Assembly (NCBI GenBank): GCA_030386875.1
Contig: CM059560.1
Coordinates: 28,514,183-28,578,182, forward strand
From: Morinoia aosen
Taxonomy: Eukaryota > Arthropoda > Malacostraca > Amphipoda > Talitridae
Direction: 5' to 3'
Length of the DNA: 64,000 nt
The position numbers and the translations under genes are program-made. The number at the start of each line of letters is the position of its first letter. Positions within the stretch are counted from its first letter, which is position 1. Shown here piece by piece: positions 16,739 to 34,500 of the stretch. Under the pieces are notes generated by a model, which ran no database searches, was not told the DNA's origin, and worked only from the letters and a program-made list of their open reading frames with translations.

Positions 16739-17166
16739 CCATACGAGGAGTACTAATTGACAAACCATCCGAGGTGTACAAGTAGATGAGCCATACGAGG
16801 CATAATAATAGACAAACTATACGAGGTGTACTATTAGACAAACTGTCAGAGGTGTACAAGTAGATAGACCATACGAGGCATATTAATTGACAAAATATAC
16901 GAGGCGTACTAATAGACAAACCATTCGTGGTGTGCTAGTAGTCTAACAAAAGTTCTATACTAGGAGTACTAATTGACAAACCATCCGAGGTGTACAAATA
17001 GATAAGCCATACGAGGCATAAGAATAATAGGCAAACTATACGAGGTGTACTAATAGACAAGCTATCAGAGGTGTACAAAATAGATAGACCATACGACGCA
17101 TATTAATAGACAAAATATACGAGGCGTACTAATAGACAAACCACACGTGGCTTGCCAATAGTCTAT
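16739..17166. repeat. Higher-order minisatellite: monomers of about 27 bp in two 8-monomer blocks
   Basis: Monomers are variants of ATACGAGGTGTACTAATAGA followed by CAAAC. Eight distinguishable monomers form a block, and the block occurs twice with a shift of 216-220 bp (16745 against 16961; 16922 against 17142). The monomer types follow the same order in both blocks (for example the TCAGAGGTGTACA monomer and the GTCTAAC/GTCTATC end). It is not a CRISPR: the monomers are contiguous, without unique spacers. Confidence 0.9.
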
Positions 17167-17479: not shown

Positions 17480-17880
17480 ATATGACATTAATACGATTCA
17501 CAGAAACGCCCTCTGGGGAAGTGATAGATCTATTTTTGAATCATTTCGCTGTTGCAATCAAATATATTAACCGAAAGGTTTTTGCGCAAAGAAATGAAAT
17601 AGAAACATGTATATCTATTTATGTAGATACATATATATACCTACACACGTACACACACATATTAATATATACTTATTGAAAATAAAATATTAGAAAAAAA
17701 ATACATATATAAGATAAAAGAAAGAAGCAACCTACCATCTACTACACAGAAAATGACAGCTGAGCTCACTGTAATCCTAAGAAATTTTCGCAAATATAAC
17801 TAAAAGGAAGAGAAGACTTCGAAAAACATAAAAATGAGCTGTTTTTTAATTTCTTCACAGAAATTTTTAAGAAAAGTCAG
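17480..17880. other. AT-rich spacer with short TA/CA microsatellite
   Basis: Contains a mixed ATATAT/CACACA stretch at about 17628-17675. A 65-codon open frame here has no recognisable domain. Confidence 0.5.
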
Positions 17881-17904
17881 GTTATAGTCAAGAATCAACA
17901 CAAC

Positions 17905-18060
17905 TCTTCAGCATTATACGGACATGTGTACGTGGGAGAAAATGGAGTAACATTGTGGCCGGATATCCCATCTGATTGGAGAATATTCGCAAAATTGGCA
18001 CATATAGGAAGATTAGGCCTTGATCCAAAAATAATAATTTTGATTACAGAAATTTAGAGT
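17905..18060 (+). pseudogene. Decayed coding-like remnant, copy 2
   Basis: Aligned with copy 1 at a 642-bp shift (CGGACATG at 17277 and at 17919), with several small indels and scattered substitutions. The frame equivalent to copy 1 is interrupted by stops and shifts, so it cannot be functional. It lies just beyond the 3' end of the LINE. Confidence 0.35.
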
Positions 18061-18592
18061 TTTTTACGATTTGAAAGTTCAGTGCTAGTGTGCGCTGAAC
18101 GCACGAAAAAAAAATAAATAAAAAGACTAAATGCAATGCTTAAATAACCCCTTTCCCCCCAGCTCAGCCGAAAATCGATTGAAAACATCTTCGAGAATGA
18201 TTTTGAAATAGCGAGACAACGTTAGCCAAAAATTTAATTCATTATAAACTTTGCACAACCCTCACATCTATAAACCTGTTTATTGGTGTACACACAAAAT
18301 GTATTTCATGGTATATTTGTCATACGGACTTTAAATATTAAATACATAAAGAGAAAGAAATAACAAAATAAAGATGAGGAAATACTCCTAATTATATTAT
18401 GGAAAGAACGTTCGTTCTGCTGCACTGAACTGACGGCTGTGGTGCTCATTGTTGTCGACAGAAATAAGTAAGATGAATATACGAATCGCTTAGCAAACGT
18501 AAAATGAAATAGTTTCTAAATTTCTAACATAAATTTCAGGAAAAATTAAAATTTCTGATAGATGGGAAGTTCACACCGAGATGCTGCAGGCC

Positions 18593-21556
18593 CTATGACA
18601 GAGATGCAAAATGACGTGACACATTTACTCTAAATTCTTTTCCAGTTTTAGAGTTTTTGATATGCTGGGGAAGCTTGTTCCACAAAAAAGCTCCAGAAAC
18701 TGAGAGAGCTTTTTGTCCCACGTTAGATGAACGGTAACTGACTAAAACATCGTTCCTCCGGTTTGGTCTTTCGTTTGGGATATTAGATGGAAAAAATTTT
18801 ACCACCTCTGCATTACTTTGGGGGAGGTACAGAGAGGAGAATACTCGTCGAGCTTTCTGGATCATGAATCTGTTCGGTATAGGGATCCAGTCGAGTTTTC
18901 TTAAAAGAGGGGTGACATGATCGTATTTATTGAAATTTCCTTTGCATACCACTTTGGCGGCGAAGTTTACACATTTTTGCAACTCTTCCTGACGACATTT
19001 AGGTAAGTCTCCCCACACAAGACTGCAGTAGTCCAGACGCGATAAAACTAGAGACTGAATCACTAATAATCTAGATTTTTCGTCAAGTGTGTTCTTTATA
19101 CGATGAAAGAACATTAAGGTTCCGTTAATTTTGTTGCACATTGTTTCGACGTGTGAATTGAAAGTCATATTTTTGTCAAACCAAACACCCAGATTTTTAA
19201 CCTTATCGACTGGTTTAATTGTATCGTCTCCAAATGTTAGCTGGAATGGTGGTAAATTTTCAGTCGCATTCTGTGAACCAAAAATAATGCATTGCGTTTT
19301 ACTTGCGTTAAGTTTGAGGCCATTTTGGTCATACCACAATTTCAGATTTCTCAGAAGGTTTTCAGCGTTGGCTTGTGTTTCTGTTAAATCCGCTGTTGAG
19401 CTTGTCATGGCAATTTGTACGTCATCAGCATACATTGAGATTTTTGTGTTTGCCGGCATGGTGGGGAAATCGTTGATGAAAATTGAAAATAGGAGTGGGC
19501 CGATGATTGAACCTTGAGGAACGCCAAAGTTATTTGGTATGAATGATGACATTTTGTTATTCAAGCACACTGCATGAGAACGGTTTCGTAGGTAGCTTTC
19601 AAACCACTGAGTGTCTATTCTGAGGTTTGAAATTTTTTGTAGAAGTTTCTTATGCTCAACACTGTCGAAAGCTTTGGAGAGATCAAGCAATAGTAAGAGA
19701 GTTAATTTTTTTTGGTCAATATCATTGTAAATTTTTTCTGTTATGTTTAACAGGGCGTCCTGAGTACTGGTATTCCTCCTGTAAGCATATTGATTGCGAT
19801 GTAGTAGATGTGACTCGTCTATGTAAGACGAGAGCTGGTTTGTTATTACTTTTTCTAATATTTTGGACATAACAGGCAGGAGACTGATTGGTCTGTAGTT
19901 TGACGCTATGTCGATATCACCAGATTTATGTAATGGCTTAATTATGGATAGTTTCCATTGATCGGGAAACTTGTTTGTGACTATAGATGTATTTATTATC
20001 AAGCGAATAAAGGGTGCTGTGACAGGGAAGCTGTCTTTTATATGTTTGAGGCTTATGCCATCATGTCCAGTCGCTTTAGTATTCTTTAGTGAGTATAAGA
20101 TTTTTCGTATCTCTATGACGCTAACTGGCTTTGGTCTCCACTTGTTGCTACTATTTGGGGATGAAACATCGCTCAGATTTGCCTCTGTAGATGTGTCTGA
20201 AACTGTCCTGGATACTTCATTGAAAACATCTTCGCCAACTTTTGAGAAGAAAGTGTTAAAGTCATTCGCCATTTCTGAGGGGTTGTCAAAAGTGCTTTTG
20301 CAGTCTGAATTTTTATACTGAGCAGCTTCTCTAATGATTTCCCAAGTTCTTTTAGGGTTTTGTTTTGCCGCCAAGAGTTCTTTGTGGAAGTAGTCCCGTT
20401 TTGCTTCCTTAACTTTTCTTCGTAGGATCTTCTCATGATCTTTATATAATTTTCGACGCGTACTGTCTGATTTATTCAGTTTGTACTCACGCTGCAAATT
20501 TCTTTTAGCTCTGCTCAAATGTTTTATCTCATCTGTTATCCATTTAGAAATTCTTGGCTTCACTTTCTTCGTAGTGAAAGGTGCGCATTCGTTAAGAGCT
20601 GATACGAAATTTTCGTTGAAAAGCGAAACTTGTAGATTGACATCATCGGTGTTTTCCATGCCTTGAAATTCACTCCATCTGTCTGATAGCTTTTCTTGAA
20701 ATATTTCAGGGGAGTAGTGGTTTTTCATGCGATATGTAATGTAACTAGATTTCTGTTTCTCTTTTGCAATATTGATTTGGCATTCTACAGAATGGTGATC
20801 AGAAAAGGACGGTAAGATTTCTGTGCTGAGTACTGCTTGGGGATTGTTGGTAATTGCTAGGTCAAGAAGAGTTTTAGAAGTGTTGGTAATTCGCGTTGGT
20901 TCTTGGACCATTTGAGAAAGATTAAGTCTGTGCAGCATCTTGCTTAGCTGATTGTTTTTATTTGTCAGATCCACGTTAAAATCTCCGAAAACATAGAAAG
21001 ACTTTTTGGCTGCAGAGATTGATCTAAGCGTATTTTCAATGAAATCTAATGTTGGACGAAGAGATGCTGACGGATGTCTGTAAAGACTGCCGATAATGAA
21101 AGACTTGTGTTTTTTTACTTGAACATTGAGCCAAACCATTTCTATGTCTTCGCATTTTTCTTTTATCGGAACTAAGGATGTAGAGTAGACATCTTTGACG
21201 AAAATGCATGAACCGCTACCTCTCTTACTCTTGACTCCGTCATAACGGTACAATTTGTACCCGGTAATGCTGAGATATGAGCTTTCGACTCGTGAATCGA
21301 ACCATGTTTCAGACACGCATAAAATATCGATATCGTTAGTGATCAACATTACTCGTACGTCATCCATTTTACCATTGAGGCTGCGGGCATTTATGTGCAA
21401 TATTTTGATATTATTTACCTCAATAGGCAGATCTTTAGTGGAGTTATTGCATTTTTTAGGTCTAGCAGGGCATTTAGTATTCGTCTCTAGGTCTTTATTG
21501 CCGCGTTCATTGTTTGTGATTTCAGCTTCATATTCAATTTGATCACTGTTATTTAG
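18593..21556 (-). CDS. LINE ORF2: APE endonuclease + reverse transcriptase
   Basis: Residues are numbered from codon 21400 (TTG, Leu in HINARSL). The APE endonuclease spans about 1-215, with NARS, SETW (Glu31), SLYRHP, GDFNVDL (Asp140, Asn142) and SDHHS (Asp201, His202). The reverse transcriptase spans about 440-720, with NYRPISLLP, DLSKAFD (Asp573), GVPQGSIIGPLLF and YADD (657-660). A C-terminal region includes LDYCSLVWG. No RNase H is visible. The frame is intact over 935 codons. It is also open upstream through 52 sense codons to the ORF1 stop, in the same frame as ORF1. That stretch has no ATG; the first in-frame ATG falls within the endonuclease fold (NGKMDD). The start is therefore set at the codon after the ORF1 stop, on the hypothesis of readthrough. 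Confidence 0.93.
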   Translation of the reverse strand, partial: LNNSDQIEYEAEITNNERGNKDLETNTKCPARPKKCNNSTKDLPIEVNNIKILHINARSLNGKMDDVRVMLITNDIDILCVSETWFDSRVESSYLSITGYKLYRYDGVKSKRGSGSCIFVKDVYSTSLVPIKEKCEDIEMVWLNVQVKKHKSFIIGSLYRHPSASLRPTLDFIENTLRSISAAKKSFYVFGDFNVDLTNKNNQLSKMLHRLNLSQMVQEPTRITNTSKTLLDLAITNNPQAVLSTEILPSFSDHHSVECQINIAKEKQKSSYITYRMKNHYSPEIFQEKLSDRWSEFQGMENTDDVNLQVSLFNENFVSALNECAPFTTKKVKPRISKWITDEIKHLSRAKRNLQREYKLNKSDSTRRKLYKDHEKILRRKVKEAKRDYFHKELLAAKQNPKRTWEIIREAAQYKNSDCKSTFDNPSEMANDFNTFFSKVGEDVFNEVSRTVSDTSTEANLSDVSSPNSSNKWRPKPVSVIEIRKILYSLKNTKATGHDGISLKHIKDSFPVTAPFIRLIINTSIVTNKFPDQWKLSIIKPLHKSGDIDIASNYRPISLLPVMSKILEKVITNQLSSYIDESHLLHRNQYAYRRNTSTQDALLNITEKIYNDIDQKKLTLLLLLDLSKAFDSVEHKKLLQKISNLRIDTQWFESYLRNRSHAVCLNNKMSSFIPNNFGVPQGSIIGPLLFSIFINDFPTMPANTKISMYADDVQIAMTSSTADLTETQANAENLLRNLKLWYDQNGLKLNASKTQCIIFGSQNATENLPPFQLTFGDDTIKPVDKVKNLGVWFDKNMTFNSHVETMCNKINGTLMFFHRIKNTLDEKSRLLVIQSLVLSRLDYCSLVWGDLPKCRQEELQKCVNFAAKVVCKGNFNKYDHVTPLLRKLDWIPIPNRFMIQKARRVFSSLYLPQSNAEVVKFFPSNIPNERPNRRNDVLVSYRSSNVGQKALSVSGAFLWNKLPQHIKNSKTGKEFRVNVSRHFASLS

Positions 21557-21559
21557 TCA
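21554..21559 (-). promoter_or_regulatory. Candidate stop-codon readthrough site UGA-CUA between ORF1 and ORF2
   Basis: ORF1 ends ATT TTG TGA CTA AAT on the minus strand (TGA at 21559-21557). The next 52 codons are open and lead in the same frame into the endonuclease. UGA followed by CUA is the established efficient readthrough context in eukaryotic and viral mRNAs. The frame identity is exact: 159 nt separate the TGA from the TTG at 21400. The alternative is a private nonsense mutation in a copy whose ancestor had a sense codon here. Confidence 0.7.
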
Positions 21560-24112
21560 CAAAATGGGGGAGGGAGCAACACGATTTTCATCACGCATTT
21601 TCAAGAGGGCGCTATAGTGGTCCTGTTTCCGGTGTATGTTTACCGGAGGACAGTTTATCAGAGCATTTGATGTAGGGGAGATTGTCGTCTTCCAAATCCC
21701 ATTGTCTCTTTCATCAAATACGTGAATTGGTGTTCTCGTTACATTAGAAAGTATTTGGGGTATGAGGTCTCCAACTGCGTGATCGAAGACTTTTCTATCG
21801 ATGTATTTATCGATGAGTTGTTCGAAACTGCCACTGTTCTTGTCAACGAATTTTGCATACTGGTCCTTGTTTCTGGAGCTCTCAGTTTTGATGGCTTTTT
21901 TCAGAGATATATAATTCCATTTCGATTTTTGTTGTGAAGCAAGCTGCGTCGTTACGGCGTGGAGGAGACAGTGTCCGTCACCTACAGTGTAAGCAGGCTC
22001 CAATTTGAGCGATCGTTTCAAGTCGTCCAGTGTGTGTGCAACGCGTGTGCAGATTTGATTCACTGTTGATTTTTCGGTAGCAGTATTAGTTTGGTCGTTC
22101 GACGGAGGCCCAGCAGAGGCATCAGATTTTTTTCGAATAATTTGATTTTCTTTGGAATAGTTTTGAATATCGGTATTCGCTTGACTTTCCTTGGTTCCTG
22201 CGTACTCACTGGAAAGTTGAGAATTGGTTGAAAAGGAGGGCATGTCGCAATCACTATTTGTGTCTGTTGCAAGTAACGCAAATTTATTTTTCGTACTGAC
22301 ATTATATTTGTCTGAGATCGAATCAGGGAAAGGCTCAGGCTTATTTACGTTCCTCATGCTGTGGGTGAGTGAGTTACTCAGACCTCTGCTTGATGACGCA
22401 ATCAATTTTGAAGGATTTGGTGTACCATGGGCAGTGATGTGCATAGGCTTATATTCTTTTTGAAAGTCTAATGTGAGACTATTTGTCTCATTCCGTAAAT
22501 TTTTCGATTCATTGGAATGATCTACAATTCCATGTATTGCTTGACATTTGTTGAAACGAGGACAATATGGCACGGTGATTCGCAATGTTGATTTCATTGC
22601 AAGTTGTTGAAGAAAACAGAAGTTCTCTTCCTGGGTCCGAGGCCATTGAAAGTTATTGAGTGCGTCACCATTTTCATTTTCTCGGTAAGTTTGAAATTGA
22701 ATCAAGTTTAAACCCAGGTTTTTGCAAAAATGCCTCGCTTTGTTGAAATCGTTTGCACTGCAAGCATCGGCAATATAAATACGAGAAAGTGCGTACTTTC
22801 TTACAATTTGTTGTTTGATTCGAGCAAGGTCTGAGGGCGAGTGGCACAGACCATCAAAACTTAGTATATAATTTTTAAATCTAGGCATGCAATTTACAGT
22901 ATGGAGAAGGTCATCGAAGCGCCCTGATGGAACAGTTTTGATCCAGCACGAGCGATCGATGTCCTTTCTTCTGATCGTGCTTAGGATATTATCACCTAGC
23001 AGCAAAGTGTCGTAAGGTTCTCGACAATTGGAGTCGATTTCACAAGAGATACTAGCAGGTACCACAGGTGCAAGGTCTTGAGAACTTATATGTGAATTTA
23101 AAGCAAAAAGCTGTTCGGTTAGGTTCTGAATGTTTGTTACTGTAGAGAAAATCGACGACGGGCTAGGAGGCTCACGTTGTCTTAGGGATTTATTGAAAAA
23201 CGCTGCTGTTAGAGACAAATTGTGAATAATTTCATGAATTTTTTGAGAGGTTGTTATTTGAAGCGGGTGCAAGTAGCCATTAAAAGAAGCAACAGTGTTA
23301 TTTTTATTGCTCTGTACTGGAAATTTTATTTTGTTTTCACAGCTTGCGCTCTGGGGTAATTTACTGCCAGTATCGGTTTGTGCGCGGAAATTATCGAACA
23401 TATTATCTGAAGAATGAGAAAAGTCTACCACGCTTGAAATGTCCTTATTAGTAAAAACTATTTTTTCTTGTACCACTGATGAGGATGGTGTTTGTATCCC
23501 CGCCACTGGCGGACAGTTCGGAGCGTTGTTGTTGACGCAGAGCTGGGGAGCTGGCACGCTGTTTTGCTTGTTCAGATGAGGAGCAGGTGGTTGTGGTGCT
23601 GCGGCTGAGACTTCACTGCTTCGAACCTTCAAATGATTGCTGGAGGTTTGGCAGATATGTTTTCCCTCATCCGGCAATATTGGTTGCATAGTCTTCACTG
23701 ACGTTGTTTCGGAAGGTGACACACATTCTTTGACGGGGTTACTGGCAGCTGTTAACAATTCTCCCGTCTTTTGAGCATTAGAATCTTGTGCGTGAGAGGA
23801 TGCAGCGTCTGAGAGATTTTCGCCCGTGTCAGATGACTCAGATTTTGCAGTCATTAGTGATGCTTTAGGGGCTGAGAAACACTTGCTTATATCAGACTTC
23901 ACGAACGTCCGAGAAGCATTTTTCGGTTTGAGTGTTTGAGGACCTTGAACTGATGGATTTACAGGGGCGGATTTATTAGGTCTGCCTTTCCGCTTTATGG
24001 CTGGTGCTCTGCGCATTTTACTGAGCTTTTCGTACGAAGCTGTACTGGAGGATGTTGTTTTTTCAGATGGGGTAACCTTCCGAGTAGTTGAACGAGTTCT
24101 ATATTGATACAT
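21557..24112 (-). CDS. LINE ORF1: SGNH-like block plus C-terminal OTU cysteine protease
   Basis: An 851-codon ORF with an ATG in good context (A at -3). Residues 1-220 are basic, then Ser/Pro-rich and probably disordered (KRKGRPNK near 41). Residues 365-505 resemble an SGNH/GDSL esterase fold like that of CR1-type ORF1 proteins, but the nucleophile position reads LLGDNIL (373-375), Asn instead of Ser, suggesting loss of activity. Residues 611-620 (FALLATDTNS) resemble the short NRF-x-x-L type motif of retroelement proteins. Residues 705-838 match an OTU cysteine protease: GDGHCLLHAV with Asp712 and Cys715, TPIHVFDE, and the catalytic His832 in DHYSALL. The OTU domain ends about 15 residues before the UGA. 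Domain calls rest on motif recognition only. Confidence 0.85.
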   Translation of the reverse strand: MYQYRTRSTTRKVTPSEKTTSSSTASYEKLSKMRRAPAIKRKGRPNKSAPVNPSVQGPQTLKPKNASRTFVKSDISKCFSAPKASLMTAKSESSDTGENLSDAASSHAQDSNAQKTGELLTAASNPVKECVSPSETTSVKTMQPILPDEGKHICQTSSNHLKVRSSEVSAAAPQPPAPHLNKQNSVPAPQLCVNNNAPNCPPVAGIQTPSSSVVQEKIVFTNKDISSVVDFSHSSDNMFDNFRAQTDTGSKLPQSASCENKIKFPVQSNKNNTVASFNGYLHPLQITTSQKIHEIIHNLSLTAAFFNKSLRQREPPSPSSIFSTVTNIQNLTEQLFALNSHISSQDLAPVVPASISCEIDSNCREPYDTLLLGDNILSTIRRKDIDRSCWIKTVPSGRFDDLLHTVNCMPRFKNYILSFDGLCHSPSDLARIKQQIVRKYALSRIYIADACSANDFNKARHFCKNLGLNLIQFQTYRENENGDALNNFQWPRTQEENFCFLQQLAMKSTLRITVPYCPRFNKCQAIHGIVDHSNESKNLRNETNSLTLDFQKEYKPMHITAHGTPNPSKLIASSSRGLSNSLTHSMRNVNKPEPFPDSISDKYNVSTKNKFALLATDTNSDCDMPSFSTNSQLSSEYAGTKESQANTDIQNYSKENQIIRKKSDASAGPPSNDQTNTATEKSTVNQICTRVAHTLDDLKRSLKLEPAYTVGDGHCLLHAVTTQLASQQKSKWNYISLKKAIKTESSRNKDQYAKFVDKNSGSFEQLIDKYIDRKVFDHAVGDLIPQILSNVTRTPIHVFDERDNGIWKTTISPTSNALINCPPVNIHRKQDHYSALLKMRDENRVAPSPIL

Positions 24113-25620
24113 TGTGACGTTGATAGAGAGGGAAGAAAAATTAAATTTTGTTCATTGGGTTAAAGTAGAAGACCTCGCCTTTTAAAGGTAGATAAAAAGA
24201 GACTGCCAGTAGGAGAGCAAGGGGGGGGGGGCTTGGGGTGTAAGCCAGAGGAGGACAGAGTGTGAGCGGGAGGAGGGGGCAGGATGCTTGCGGTCGGCAG
24301 AGCAGAGCAGCGTTGCTTGCTGTTCTGCTTGGGGAAGAAAAGAGAAAAGAAAAAAAGAGAAAGAAAAGAACTTCAACTTTTCCATCAGAAGATTGCTCTG
24401 GTGAACTATTCGAGAAACGTCGTATTGTTTAAATTTACTTCACATTGTGGAATTATGCTCCGTCTGTGAACACAGGCTTACTATGTTTAACATGGTAAGT
24501 TATTTCCAAAGTTGCTGGATCAAGTTTATTTAATTTTTATATTTAAAAGTTCCTTCAAAGAAGAAGAAGTGAATAATGACGACAATGACGTTCAGACTTT
24601 TGCAGGTTGACACATTTTACTCATTCAGTTTCTCAACGTTTCATAAACAAAATTTGTAATCCCTCATTCACTTTGAAAAATTGGGTGATTAACTTTCAAC
24701 AAGAAAAATAGCTATCATTGAAATGTTTGCGGATGAGGGATTGCGTTGCTCGTTCACATTTGAAGACGAAAATGACTGCCTTTTAATGCCAGATGAAGAG
24801 AAGCCGCCCGTAAGCAAGAGGGGGAGGGGTAGAGGAAAAGAGAAGGTAGAGTAGACAGAGACGGGGGTGCGGGGGAGCAGGATGCTTGCGGTGATCCAGC
24901 TTGGCGTTGCTCGTTCGTCTGCTTGTGAAGAAAACAATACAATTTTTTCCGTGTGAAGATTGCTATGGTGAGCTATCCACCAGACGTCATATTGCTGAAA
25001 ATTCGCCTCACGTTGTGGAAATATGTTCTAGCAGTGAACACAGATTTAAGTTAGCCACTATTACGGCGTGGCAATTTTTCCAAGGAGAGGGTAGGCTGGG
25101 GGGAGGAAGGGGTGCGGACGCAGACTTGGGGTAGCTGGGCCCTCATAGAGGTCTATTGTTTCAGGGTGTCACATTTTATTCACTCATTTTGAGACCTTCA
25201 ACATTTACAGAATTTATTTTTCTCTAAATCACTTTTTACGTCACTGTTTCATAAAGAGTTCTCAATAAAAGGACAGAGTTACTTACTGGTAAAGTAATTT
25301 GAGCACAATTTTGAGGATTAAAGGTCGATATTGACATAATTTTTGCAGTAACTGATAAAAATTACAAAAAAGTTATCACTGTGTTTTATGTTTGTCGTCA
25401 CGAAAATTCAAATTTTCTACTGCATCGGACCTTTTTTGTTTCCATGGTGGTATTAGTGGTACGTTTGTTCTATATGCGAAAAGAAGGAGGGGCAGGCGTT
25501 GCGGTTGACCAGGGAGGGAGGCTACACCGAGGGTCGCTGCACAGACTTCGAGTGGAGACAAAGTTTACAGAAAGCACCAGTCTGTTTTTGCACAATAAAA
25601 TTGGTAACAACTGATTGTAT
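24113..25620 (-). promoter_or_regulatory. LINE 5' region built of repeated GC-rich units of about 0.6 kb
   Basis: The region upstream of ORF1 repeats itself. AGGATGCTTGCGGT occurs at 24281 and 24879 (shift 598), and a diverged relative (CAGGCGTTGCGGT) near 25493. Around the first two lie matching blocks: GAAGATTGCT.TGGTGA, TCACATTGTGGAA/TCACGTTGTGGAA, GTGAACACAG and a CACATTTTA.TCA.TCA block. A run of 11 G at 24221-24231 on the plus strand is part of the first unit. By analogy with monomeric L1 promoters this may be a stacked-promoter 5' UTR. The promoter role is inference. Confidence 0.6.
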
Positions 25621-27444: not shown

Positions 27445-30400
27445 CTGCACGAACACCGAGGTAGAAGTTTGGGTAGAACAGCAGTTTCCTGAATTGTGTC
27501 ATCTGTTTTTTCTTTTTTTATATTGATGATTAATTTCATGGTGCTACATGAGGTAGCGTAGGTGGTTTGAAGGGCTGCAAAATGAAGAACACGCTAGTGT
27601 TACGAGCGCTGAAATGGTTCATGAGGTGTAGATGATGTGTTTTCTGAAAAATAAGTGAATACTCAAACATGAAAGAACGGAAAGATTTCCTTCTTTGACA
27701 TGAATTTCACAGTCGTCATGTTTGAATTGTTAACATTGTTCTAACATTTTAATTCATTTTCGCTAAAAGTTGGAAGTTTATCGCACTTCATTGAGACAAA
27801 CGAAGAAAATCCTGCAACCAAATGTGAAATCAGAATTTGGTTCTTATGTTTTCAATAAATTTGGATGCCTGTTGAAATGATTACCCTCTTCTAGAGAAGG
27901 AGACATTCATTAGAGTAAAAAATGCTTGTTTTACTAACAAGTGACCATGCATACATCATATTTTCTTAATAAACATTTATAAATCTACGAACATAACACA
28001 AAAACCCTCTGATATAACTCCTCGAAGCTTGTCTAGGCGTGAAGACCTGGGTGATTTTCGAATTTCTGTAGAATTGTCACTCACTTTCGCACACTGATAA
28101 TTGGTTATTAATTATCCAGTTATTATAACTAAAAAATTGGCTGTTTAATTCTGTCTTTGTACAATCTTGTTTTAACTCGCAACTTTTTATCAAAGTCGAA
28201 AATCGCTATAATTCAGCCAACAATTTCTGAAACTAATTCAATTGCAGTTAAATTGTTTTTATCGCAAGCCGTATAAGAATATTCAAGTAATGATTGCTCA
28301 AAATATGCCAAATATACAAAACAAACATTAACCATATTAGAAAAAAATTACGTTCAAATGAGGGTTTGAACAAATCGATGTGAAATTTATTTTCAAAATA
28401 TGTACTATGTTTGCATTGACGTTCGTCTTCTTACCATATCGAGGAAGTCGAGGGGATAAGTGGAACTAATGATGAAAGTGACTGTTGCTAAAATCATAAT
28501 AACTTCGCCTGTCAGAGGTGTCGACTTCCGGGTAGGCAATTAATTACTTTTTAATTGGTGTGTAATGAGCATGTCTTTCTATTGCATCAAGATGAGAAAC
28601 AGCTTCTGTGTCTTTCTCGGATGAATTTGCTTATTTTAAAGTCAAATAATTATACCCGTTCAAATTCAAATATAGATCTAAGATTTCTTTCACAAACTTT
28701 GAACATTGTTTTAAAAATTTTTGTTCCAAATTTTGGAACACTTTGAAGCAAAACATATGTAGACGACATTTATCCGAAAATACAACTTTTCTATCGCTGT
28801 TTCCCTACGTTCGCTTGCCTACGAGTTGACTAGTAAACCCACTGAGCAATTTTAGAATAAACTTTCACGAATATTACCTTGGCAGCTTTCGTTGAAAGAG
28901 TTTGAATTCCGTTTTCTTTACAAAAATGAGTCATCGCAAGTTATGTGGTCGATTTCCGTAAAACTTGGCTAAGTTAGAAAATAAAAATAAAGATTTTTAT
29001 GCCTATTTTGACGAAACGATTCTCAAAATTTAAAAGTTATTGTATGAAAAATTCAAGGACAGTTTGGAAAGCTTAATTTCTGTTTGACATCTTGTTAACT
29101 TGATTGACTACTAATGACACTAACCAACAATGTTCTACAATACATTAACTTTTTGAGTTTCACTTGCAAACCCCTTTTTTTTATTTGATCTTGATCCCCC
29201 TTGTATTTTTGTATAGATCACTCTTAAAGTCCCCGTTTATAAAAACAGTTTTTTGAATTTTTAAAGTGTTTAGAAATTCCCACTAACTGTTTGCATTTAT
29301 TAGTCAATCATGTTCAGGCCACTGCGTTTAAATATCTGCTAAATTTTCTCAATAAAATTTGGATTGCATTAGTGAAGTGTGATATTCTACTACACGCTTT
29401 AAATTATCTTGAGTTAAGGTGTTTTCTCACAAATTCGAAGGGTATAATCGTGGACGTAATCTCGAGTACGAAACTGCTGTCGTTTTGTGATGTTCTGAAT
29501 AATATATCATACTGCGATGATAAGATCTTATGAAGTATGCATCATAAACCGAAACCCAAATTAATTCGTATGAAAAAAATACACATTCAACGAAAACACA
29601 GCGTGGAATTATTATGGATAACAGCCAAAACATCGCCCAAAACTGGCTTGTTGTTTTTGTCTTTAAAAAAGCCGCACTAATTTAACAACCGGCTTGGTAG
29701 ACTTAATGTCTCAAAACTTCATGTGCCAAGACTTAACACTCAACACTTCATGTGATGAGGCAACACTTCATGTTATCGTCTCAACATTTCGTGATTCAGT
29801 CATGAACAATATTAACAATTCATTTTGATGAAAAATGTTTATATTTCTGTACCTATTCAATCTTAACTTCAATTTTTTTGTGCAGTTTCTAATTCGATTA
29901 GATTTGAGGAAACAACGTGTCAGGGCTGATATGAAGCTACATGTGTGTTACACGTAGATGGTTAAAAGAGATACGCGTGCAGGTAATTTGGGAACCGGTT
30001 ATTTTAGATGAACTTCAATTATTCTGCATGCCTAGATATAGCACGCCAGGCAAATTACCGTATTAGCAAGATGACCGTGTCCTATAAATATATTTTATTT
30101 ACATTTCCATGAACTTACCACTCACGAAAATCGGGGATTTTCTATTCTAACAATTTCTATTTGCTAACATCTTACCTGTTCTAAAGTTTTCATTTGCAGG
30201 AATACTGAACTGTTGATATGATAACAGTCTCTCAATTTGCTTTTCCCTCTATCGAGTTTTACTTACGTGGTTTATTATACAACCAGACATGCATCGTAAA
30301 TCACTGATATCACTTTTCTTCCTCCTAACTTTTTATTCTCGCGAAGCAAGCATTCGCGCATGTCTCGCATATTGAGTCGGTTATAAAAACCTGTCAAATC

Positions 30401-30605
30401 ACGGGAGGAAAGCTACGTTAAACAACAAGTTCTTAATTTTGTACCAACGTCCTAGTTCAGTTTGTGCAGATCGATGACTGAATGTTACTGTAACTCCTTC
30501 CTTTCACGGCAACTCTAGTGCCTGCGCGTGATTAGTCTGACTCTATACGACTTGAAGAGAAACTAGAGAATGGACAACTGTTGTCGTAGAGCATTTTATT
30601 TTGTT
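27445..30605 (-). other. Intron between Ig2 and Ig3 (phase 1); no gene seen
   Basis: The whole intron runs 27445-31445 (4001 bp). This part is AT-rich with short unsupported open frames. A small irregular repeat of CAACACTTCATGT-like segments lies at about 29712-29795. Confidence 0.7.
29712..29795. repeat. Short irregular direct repeat, about 20-bp spacing
   Basis: CAACACTTCATG occurs at 29741 and 29761, with variants near 29713 and 29782. No coding value. Confidence 0.5.
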
Positions 30606-30613
30606 CCGTCTAA

Positions 30614-31380
30614 TCTGCTCTACTACTCTCTACTCTGCTCTGCTCAACTCTACTCTACTCTACTCTACTCTGTTCTACTCTACTCTACCCTACTCTACTC
30701 TGTTCTTCTCTACTCTACCCTATTCTACTCTGTTCTACTCTACTCTATCATACTGTGCTCTACTCTACTCTACCCTACTCTGCTCTGCTCTACTCTACTC
30801 TACCCTACTCTACTCTGTTCTACTATACTCTATAATACTCTACTCTACTATACTCTACCCTTCTCTACTCCGTTCTTCTCTACTCTACCCTATTCTGCTC
30901 TGTTCTACTCTACTCTATCATACTCTGCTCTACTCTACTCAACCCTACTCTGCTCTGTTCTACTCTACTCTACCCTACTCTACTCTGTTCTACTCTACTC
31001 TATCATACTCTGCTCTACTCTACTCTACCTTTCTCTACTCTGCTTTTCTCTACTCGACCCTACTCTACTCTGTTCTACTCTACTCTATCATACTCTGCTC
31101 TGCTGAACTCTACCCTACTCTGTTCTGCTCTACTCTACTCTACTCTACTCTACTCTGTTCTACTCTACTCTATCATACTCTGCTCTACTCCACTCTACCT
31201 TACTCTACTCTGCTCTACTCTACTCGACCATACTCTGCTCTGTTATACTCTACCCTACTCTGCTCTGCTCTGCTCTACTCTACCCTACTCTGCTCTGCTC
31301 TGCTGTACTCTGCCCTACCCTACCCTACTCTTCTCTGCTCTACTCTACTCGGCCTTACCTAACCTGACCCTATACCCTTC
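30614..31380. repeat. TACTC pentamer satellite with 85-bp higher-order period
   Basis: About 150 pentamers of TACTC and variants (TGCTC, TGTTC, TACCC). A marker variant, TACTCTATCA, recurs at 30741, 30911, 30996, 31081 and 31166, with TACTCTATAA at 30826. All are spaced at exact multiples of 85 bp (17 pentamers). The plus-strand frames are free of stops only because the repeat lacks stop codons, so they are not genes. The array ends about 65 bp from the Ig2b splice donor and is purine-rich in the gene's sense strand. Confidence 0.97.
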
Positions 31381-31445
31381 CTCTAAGCTATTTTACTACC
31401 GCATGATGCCCCGTCAGCCTCTCCGAGCGAGAGGGAGCCACTCAC

Positions 31446-31593
31446 GCAGCACGTTGACGGAGAGCGATGTGGTGGAGGGCTCTGTGATGTTGTTGTTGAG
31501 CGCCTGGCAGGAGAGCGTGGCGTCGTGGAGTTGCCTCGTGACTTCCACACTAATTCTGCTTTCAATCACTGCCCCGCTGCCCAGGCCGGAGCT
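31446..31593 (-). CDS. Sidestep-family exon, second half of Ig domain 2
   Basis: The 148-bp exon follows the acceptor TGATGCTTGCAG and ends GTGCTGC before GTGAGT. It starts in phase 0 and ends in phase 1. It encodes SSGLGSGAVIESRISVEV, then HDATLSCQALNNN with the F-strand cysteine, and a G strand TTSLSVNVL. The usual F-strand Tyr two residues before Cys is replaced (ATLSC), as also seen in family members. NNIT is an N-glycosylation sequon. Confidence 0.92.
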
Positions 31594-34500
31594 CTGCAAG
31601 CATCAATTACAGCCGCCTTAGTGCAACGAGCCGTGATTTATGGAGGAAGACTAACATGCTTTGAGGCTAAATTCATTTGATTTAGGAGTGCCCCCAACGA
31701 GTCGGGATGAAATATCTGACTTCAAATGTTTAAATTCATTCGTGTTATCATTCCACTCGGAAAATTTGAGCATTGGAATTTTTAAAATCCTCGCTTCGTT
31801 ATGAGGGGCTGTTTTGCAAATGTAATTTCTTGCGACCGCGTAACTCGTATTGGATGTTAGAGCTTTAAGAGTTTTCACGTGGAAGTATTGCTTTATACAT
31901 GTTCATTACGAAATAGGATTCAAATAGCATTACAGTTAGGGAGCAAAAATTAACGTTAAATATATGTTTTTTACTTTTCCTTAGATTCAAACCGTGCTTT
32001 AAAATTGAACCTGTAGAACATAAAATCAACTTTCGAGGTCATCGGGTTCTCCTCACGGATGAATTCGAGATTCACAGAAATGAAAGCTTCGAGTGTTAAC
32101 GATAAACAATTCCGTCTTCTTATCTCCTTTTCTAGACGCTTGCATGGGAGGCTATTCAAGTGCTCTAAATCCTCGCTCTCGTTCACAAACTTCAAAGCAG
32201 TTCCGGATAGAAGGTATCTTCGAGTATTAATCACCTGGATTTATTTTTGGCCGGATACATCACAACATTTTCTTGAGTCCTGACAAAATGAAACCGAAAT
32301 GAATGACTTTCCAAGTCCTTCTCTATTCCAAGACAGAAAGTCTGCTATGAATGTAAACTCTGATTTAAATCCTGAAATAGCCATTAACGTTCGTTAACTG
32401 GAAGTTACTCGCTTTCGTGTCAACGAAAGCGAGAACAATTTAGTGTATAGTTTGAAAAAACATTCATTCTTTTAATATTTGGTGCGCGAAGATGCCAGAC
32501 ATAGTTTTCAATATTATATGTCTGGCAATATTATATGATGACGAAGCCTATGCCAAACCAAAGTAATGTGTTCGGAAAGAAATTGAAATAAATTTTGCTC
32601 GTTGCATTAGACTCGGCATGAATTCCATCATGGAATACAATGCATCGAAATATAACGTTCGGCGTTGTCCACTGTTGATTATGCGCCGTCAATTTTTGGC
32701 CTTCATTTTTGTTCGCAGGAATTACTGACGTATATCACTTGAATCGACACTTCTTCAGCTGATATTTTTTAGTCTGATAATAGAGCTTTTTTATTGATAG
32801 GAACAAATAAAAAAGTTAATGTTTGCATGCGCATTTTCTTATTTCGTAGCTGTCTTCATTAATTACGTGAGGGCGTTTAAATATTTCTGTCATGGGGACT
32901 AAATCAATTTCAGTCTGGATAATAGAATTTTTTTTACAGAAGAAAAACTTATTATTTAACCGAAATGATATATTGAATCTTAAAATTCAAAATGTAACAT
33001 TGTTTAGTCATGGGTACTCGTGCTATTAACCATATATACTACGTAAGTAGACCGTAGAATGTGTTGCGGTCACGCAATCTAGAAACTCTTCATTTTTCAT
33101 GAAAACCCCTTCGCTCACTTCTTTTTAGGCAGACACTGGAGGATTTTTAAAACAAGGGTTCTAAAGGAATCTAAAATGACTCCCAATATAACGGATGAAT
33201 TAAAAAAAAACAGTTATGCAATTCTAAGATGCAGAAATTTTTTATTGCATTTTGAAAACAAAATTCTTCATGCGCTGCACCTCTATAGCGCAGACAGAAA
33301 TCGGCGCGATTACGCAAGTTGTTCATTACGGTGCTAGTGAAATCTGGTCCAATTTGCAGGATTTCTACTTCGATGGACGCCTTGGTGTAGATTTGTACAT
33401 CTTTCACGGTAAACTCTTCCTATTAGGTATCTCCACGGGAAAGCATCTACTCAAGGCGTCCATCGTGGCATAAATCCAGGAAATTGAACCAAATCTCATC
33501 AGCGCCGCGCAATGAACAGCTTGCGTTATCGCTTTGATTCTTGTGTGTGCTCAGGGAGGAGGCACACATAGAATATTTTGTTCAAAACGCAATAAAAATA
33601 GCCCTTCGCAGTACTTAATCAGAGCTATATTGTTAAAGTCTATCCGAAATTGGGGGAGTTCTTAAAGGTTCTTTTAGGACCCATACTTATAAATCACCCT
33701 AAATAAGTACTGGAACCTTGATTGCACCCATGCTATCAAGAACCAATCAAATTTGTTGAAAAATTTGAATTTTTAACGACAAAATACGTACTAAAAGATT
33801 GTACGAACCCTTTCTCAGAAGTGCATTTTGTCAAATATTTACTGAACGCAGTTGTACAATAATTGACAGACTCCCTTGTTGTTATTCTTGACTCATGTTT
33901 CAAACGATCATATGAAATAATTTCCATTGATTGCTTCTTAATCATTTCTGTTTTCTCTAGCGACTGTTTTCTGAGCCATGTTCGTTCTAAATTTACTGGA
34001 AAGAAAGGCGAGGCAATTAATGATAGATAATGAATTTGAAGGGGAATCGAAGGGTCAAACTGACGTCATCTCACAGAAAGGGAAAACATCAATCAAACGG
34101 AAGCCTCATTTCAAAGCTCGAACTGAGAACAAGAAAATGTCGTTGGACCAAAACGCAGTTGAAATCATTCACGTCCCTCACCCCTGGCCAACCTCCTAAG
34201 CGCTTCACTCACTAACAGTGCACTGTAACCCTTTGCTCCCCTCTCTTCCTAAATTACAGTGAGTTTGGTCGATGAAACTCCTTCTGTCTTAAGTTTAGGG
34301 TTACGTTTGGGGTAAAACGTGACACTAACCTAACAGCGGTCATTTGAATCAAAATCTGATACGCAATACCTCTTCGATGCTCTAGCACTTTTTTGGAATC
34401 GAATGTACGCAGTTCGGTGGATGGTTCCAAGATTTTCGTCCATAGAGTGTAGATCTGGCATGAATAAATTGGGCCAATCTGGAAGCGCTATCAAGGAGGG

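Follow-up and report, generated by a model that had tools for sequence, protein, structure and literature searches.

The window, that is, the whole stretch of 64,000 nucleotides that was analyzed (G000:C5:28514183-28578182), belongs to a searched genome of 1.99 Gb in 29 contigs. On its minus strand, a long ORF1 (21560..24112) starts with an ATG at 24112 and runs for 851 codons, with an OTU-like cysteine protease domain toward the C-terminus. The sequence and its translation show that the C-terminal residues ...PSPIL are followed by a TGA stop codon (21557..21559, minus strand), the proposed leaky stop, and this in turn directly by a CTA codon (21554..21556, minus strand), which together form the UGA CUA context (PMC4132726, PMC4359377). 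The frame of ORF1 is open again from the first base after the stop. This ORF2 frame (18593..21556, minus strand) comprises 987 codons plus a stop codon and encodes an APE endonuclease and a reverse transcriptase; its sense codons span 21556-18596, and its stop codon ends at 18593. The first 52 codons form a linker (21401..21556, minus strand) that is open in frame and devoid of in-frame ATGs. The first in-frame ATG of ORF2 is codon 64 (21365..21367, minus strand), which lies inside the endonuclease domain, 3' of the HINARS motif and within the Pfam Exo_endo_phos match (residues 56-254). ORF2 has Pfam matches above the cut-off to PF03372, PF14529 and PF00078, by which the element is an APE-type LINE (non-LTR retrotransposon). 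No Pfam match to an integrase or an RNase H was found in the window ORFs.

These features had been proposed beforehand. The minus-strand sequence at 21559-21554 bore out the TGA followed by CTA, and the 987 codons without a stop confirmed that the same frame stays open through the linker into the APE endonuclease. The location of the first in-frame ATG within the endonuclease was likewise correct. The stated absence of ATGs from the linker held for the ORF2 frame, but not out of frame, where four ATGs occur. The open linker is unusual for its composition, as it was stop-free in frame in only 0.41% of 20,000 dinucleotide shuffles (P 0.0041), and stop-free and ATG-free together in 0.03% of them; the absence of ATGs alone was not significant in such shuffles (P 0.09).

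Next, the junction was analyzed in further copies. The element is multi-copy and dispersed, with at least 40 matches at 100% identity. Four of 77 fetched loci (L047, L051, L067 and L076) end before the junction, which we took as 5' truncation. The remaining 73 all contain TGA CTA; after three that had been fetched twice were dropped, they represent 70 distinct copies, the window's own included. A private mutation of the window copy, for which a sense codon would be expected in place of the TGA in most copies, was not borne out, since none of the 73 loci has one. Although the 30 loci from the DNA match set, all with TGA CTA, are a biased set because they were selected by similarity across the junction, the other 43 loci were selected by ORF2 protein similarity alone (28 of 30 and 15 of 17 of these reach the junction), and all 43 have TGA CTA as well. 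In a 3.5 kb read of the 30 DNA-match loci, 27 had no further in-frame stop, and the extra stops were one in ORF2 of L014 and some in the ORF1 part of L022 and L029. Seven of 28 protein-selected loci (L032, L038, L039 and L055-L058) carry an additional stop within the ORF1 portion of the frame and are thus damaged or frameshifted upstream, and L037 has an in-frame stop in ORF2.

The 52-codon linker is free of in-frame stops and ATGs in 70 of 70 distinct copies; the comparison was restricted to copies that match the junction key exactly, as all 73 loci do. Among the 70 copies is a subfamily (L038, L039 and L058) that is about 95% identical in ORF2 protein. An apparently high divergence of ORF1 in L039 and L058 (dS 0.36) was discarded as an artefact of small indels, the real difference being 0-13% per 100 bases. 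Between the subfamilies, the linker differs by two to three synonymous and two non-synonymous changes, too few for a selection test. In the suggested check for conservation and purifying selection, TGA-CTA and the open linker proved to be kept in all copies; the data on selection in the linker consist of four to five changes. Across the 70 copies, the TGACTA columns contain no variants, against an expectation of 1.7 at the local rate, a non-significant difference. As the copies are young, their uniformity shows that the active family has the stop and does not demonstrate selection. A genome search with the distant protein P0018 found the window family only, with an ORF2 frame of 987 codons in 44 of 44 scored matches, and other genome searches yielded ORF2 frames of 982-1084 codons. 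At these lengths, a fusion with ORF1 is absent from every scored match.

The same genome contains a diverged family, family C, with at least 40 matches at 99-100% identity over the junction (reference copy L078 at G000:C6:85265900-85267500). Compared with the window element, identity is 36% for ORF1 over the part read, 52% for the OTU region (whose Pfam score in family C, 18.3, is below the cut-off of 23.3), and 57% for ORF2 from the linker into the APE domain (window ORF2 residues 7-186). ORF1 of the reference copy ends with TGA CAG, and ORF2 continues this frame without a stop and lacks an in-frame ATG ahead of codon 73. Among 13 family C copies selected by similarity across the junction, the stop is TGA in all 13, and the next codon is CAG in 12 and CTG in one. 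CUA is a feature of the window family and not of the clade. From the stop to the conserved motif there are 53 codons in the window element and 56 in family C. In the linker proteins of the two families, 16 of 49 aligned residues are identical, and 8 of 1000 shuffles score as well; this resemblance beyond composition speaks for translation of the linker. The family C linker was stop-free in 1.6% of dinucleotide shuffles (P 0.016) and ATG-free in 36%, so that the absence of ATGs alone was not significant.

In the protein search, the named ORF2 relatives belong to the amphipod Trinorchestia longiramus, with identities of 64-68% across 33-61% of the query, which makes an amphipod or a related crustacean the probable host. 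In the relatives P0006 and P0014, the predicted ORF2 protein starts inside an apparent ORF1 zinc knuckle, and the stop may be missing or moved. Prokaryote genome contigs were also scanned with an alignment of relatives, and nine loci were found, which we take to be eukaryotic LINE contigs that were binned into bacterial or archaeal MAGs. L091-L098 look like eukaryotic LINE contigs and are placed in MAGs assigned to Arcobacter, Aquifex, TM6 and others, probably by bin contamination; the L093 and L095 contigs were binned as Marinifilum and an archaeon. Six of the nine loci extend upstream of ORF2, two start inside ORF2 (L096 and L098), and L099 was left out. Scans of viral contigs found no relative.

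L091 and L092, whose ORF2 proteins are 51% identical to each other and 36% and 35% identical, respectively, to that of the window, both contain a single TAG, after which ORF2 continues the frame and reaches the APE motif without an in-frame ATG. ORF1, which is cut by the contig end, terminates in both with zinc-knuckle-like motifs (zf-CCHC E 0.0069, below the Pfam cut-off), and the stop is at the same place after the knuckle. Behind the stop, the encoded residue is shared at 9 of 21 aligned codons; the linker differences by codon position are 8, 8 and 10, which is no codon signature of selection. The stop contexts are TAG GGG in L091 and TAG GAT in L092, and neither is known to be leaky alone. 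In L097, a 443-codon ORF1 frame ends with TAG CAA CTA, which agrees with UAG CARYYA throughout; the frame then continues as ORF2, and the 11 codons that precede the APE motif contain no ATG. L097 is one contig, and a private change may have occurred there. Other arrangements were found in the remaining loci: in L093 and L095, a single open frame contains ATGs as well as an NPGP motif of the 2A type in the leader, and L094 has ATGs in the leader and no ORF1 in frame. The layout with a single in-frame stop is thus present in five of eight informative lineages, namely the window family, family C, L091, L092 and L097, and absent in L093-L095. The openness of the linker was not significant singly for L091 (P 0.15), L092 (P 0.09) or L097 (P 0.36). 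In an ORF2 protein tree, calculated without family C and without named CR1 or L2 reference elements, the window element, L091 and L092 form one clade with a support of 1.0, and L097 lies outside.

Stop codon readthrough would jointly account for the shared frame, the zero codons between the stop and the frame, the lack of an in-frame AUG at its start, and the textbook leaky contexts in two distant families. We infer that readthrough occurs, that it has a certain rate, and that the fusion is the working enzyme. According to this model, ribosomes would start at the ORF1 AUG and mostly terminate at the UGA, while a small fraction would decode the UGA in its CUA context via a near-cognate tRNA and continue through the linker into ORF2. 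The endonuclease/reverse transcriptase would be made as a minor ORF1-ORF2 fusion, and, judged from the sequence, it is probable that this APE-type LINE indeed produces its enzyme in this way. The original prediction of a readthrough fusion is supported insofar as the layout is found in all junction-reaching copies and extends to family C and to LINEs from other hosts.

UGA CUA has been reported as the high-readthrough consensus in human cells (PMC4359377), and a readthrough of about 1.5% has been given for UGA CUA alone (PMC4132726), with a range of about 1.5-2.9% when a further source is included (PMC11166343). The 5' context of a stop is also reported to affect readthrough (PMC12233894). Viral type II readthrough is described as UGA followed by CUA or CGG, and type I as UAG CARYYA (PMC11166343). 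The window family has the type II stop in 73 of 73 loci, whereas family C, with CAG in 12 of 13 copies, does not. The window element also has the open in-frame extension without an AUG of its own at the start, as in type II. L097 has the type I signal, with CARYYA directly following the UAG, in one contig. The stem-loop 6-12 nt downstream that accompanies many, though not all, type II stops was not found in the window family (z -0.28 to 0.29). For L091 and L092, the comparison with type III, which is characterized by UAG, a purine-rich spacer and a pseudoknot, yielded TAG G in both and z values from -0.98 to 1.74 with plain folding. Folding, which had been suggested as a check for a stimulatory RNA structure downstream of the stop, revealed none beyond chance in the five lineages (z -0.98 to 1.74, with plain folding and pseudoknots outside the model). 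Two other recoding mechanisms were rejected: selenocysteine at the UGA, as there was no SECIS among three Rfam matches at E <= 1 in 17500-25200, and 2A at the junction, as there is no NPGP in ORF1. We lean slightly toward a wider version of the readthrough reading, according to which an entire clade of animal LINEs and at least one LINE outside it would make the reverse transcriptase as a readthrough ORF1-ORF2 fusion like retroviral Gag-Pol, with a leaky signal that differs by lineage (UGA CUA, UGA C, UAG CARYYA or UAG G).

Alternatively, ORF2 might be translated separately, by termination-reinitiation or internal entry, starting either from a non-AUG codon of the linker or from the ATG of codon 64. 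Reinitiation is described as reported for SART1 and proposed for L1 (PMC5972666), and a non-AUG start in the linker is compatible with the sequence. However, in-frame ATGs are absent from the linker in 70 of 70 copies and in L078, and from the stretch ahead of the APE motif in L091, L092 and L097. The four out-of-frame linker ATGs of the window copy could catch scanning ribosomes, and a start at codon 64 would cut off the start of the endonuclease together with the HINARS motif. Moreover, reinitiation requires neither a shared frame nor zero codons between stop and frame, and a separate start does not account for a frame that, in five lineages, is open from the very base that follows the ORF1 stop. 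Zorro3, which has an inter-ORF spacer, is reported to lose most of its activity when the ORF2 ATG is altered (PMC1965478); for the same reason, it was rejected as a precedent for readthrough. Separate translation therefore appears unlikely.

Even less probable is a second transcript for ORF2, which would arise by splicing out of the stop or from an internal promoter that gives an ORF2 mRNA. A minor junction promoter is reported for Tca2 (PMC2194720), and the Trinorchestia gene model P0020, an annotated protein and not a transcript, links OTU to RT and omits the junction. Yet, if the junction were spliced out or the RNA contained ORF2 only, nothing would keep the linker open. We regard it as very improbable that the layout is incidental, with the UGA as an ordinary terminator and the open in-frame linker as a product of chance or a historical remnant. 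The context 3' of the stop differs between families, no RNA structure was found near the stop, and the codon-position signal is absent between L091 and L092, all of which would fit such a view. The recurrence of the layout in five lineages and the shuffle P values of 0.004 and 0.016 for the two long linkers argue against it. In addition, both the window family and family C are young and present in many copies, from which it can be presumed that ORF2 is produced in some way.

The OTU domain of ORF1 lies close to the stop. The Pfam match PF02338 (ORF1 residues 711-810, E 3.1e-7; 21683..21982, minus strand) ends about 41 codons before it. A DGHC motif is found inside the match and a DHYSAL motif at ORF1 residue 831, some 20 codons short of the stop; family C has retained both, and we take them to be the catalytic motifs of the domain. 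A single-sequence fold prediction of the OTU was set aside (pLDDT 39). In tymoviruses, an OTU protease releases the enzyme within its polyprotein. By analogy, the OTU protease directly upstream of the stop may, in the OTU families, release the enzyme from the fusion. In the Trinorchestia protein P0020, an OTU with 50% identity to the window OTU is joined to an RT with 68% identity, and this type of OTU is thus not confined to the window's genome. No OTU-type fused relative was found at E <= 0.001 among 598 protein-database candidates, and no ORF1 homologue among 7991 candidates in a search that scored words drawn from the N-terminal 500 residues, a range that does not include the OTU end. No paper on an OTU in a LINE ORF1 was found in the literature searched, which was covered in part, and the term OTU is absent from the text of a 2014 survey of the ORF1s of this group (PMC4120745).

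Stop codon readthrough is well known in viruses, and no described case in a LINE was found in the literature searched, which covers the field partially. The same applies to non-LTR elements in general, Repbase reports aside; the portions consulted of a 2016 review on recoding (PMC5009743) and a 2017 review on reinitiation (PMC5972666) name frameshifting or reinitiation for these elements. The window element resembles the type II readthrough cases of RNA viruses, OPRL1 and AQP4 in having UGA followed by CUA and an open in-frame extension without an in-frame AUG near its start. It differs from them in that it is LINE-borne, the extension is the whole endonuclease/reverse transcriptase, no downstream stem-loop was detected, and the base after CUA is A and not G. 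With gammaretroviral Gag-Pol (type III) it shares the arrangement of a structural ORF1 and an enzyme-coding ORF2 that lie in one frame and are separated by a single stop, and in L091 and L092 the UAG is followed by G; in contrast to Gag-Pol, the element is not a retrovirus, has an APE endonuclease and no Pfam match to an integrase or RNase H, and no pseudoknot has been shown. SART1, L1 and Zorro3 also have the dicistronic RNA of an APE-type LINE, but with an ORF2 AUG or a stop-start overlap, whereas the window element has neither before the endonuclease. LINEs with an N-terminal 2A likewise use recoding in translation, as the NPGP motifs in L093 and L095 recall, but there the 2A lies within one open frame that has an ATG, while a stop separates the ORFs of the window element. 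Tca2, an LTR retrotransposon of Candida albicans, also has an in-frame UGA between its two ORFs (gag and pol). Its junction is reported to give no readthrough in S. cerevisiae, yet pol is made from a gag-pol RNA (PMC2194720), a caution that a UGA in frame will not always prove leaky when placed in a reporter.

The mode of translation of the second ORF is known for few LINEs. If readthrough is used, a fixed leaky stop would determine how much enzyme is made relative to ORF1 protein, and the enzyme would be tethered to the ORF1 protein and so, perhaps, to its own RNA. LINEs would then have reached the retroviral Gag-Pol solution separately.

Three further observations were made elsewhere in the window. 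Upstream of ORF1, at 24250-25060, two imperfect copies of a stretch beginning gcaggatgcttgcgg were recognized by eye and are perhaps 5' UTR monomers. A tandem array with a 26-base unit is located at 16739-17161. The region 30001-32000 has a strong GC skew (-0.31) and AT skew (-0.22) in comparison with the rest of the window.
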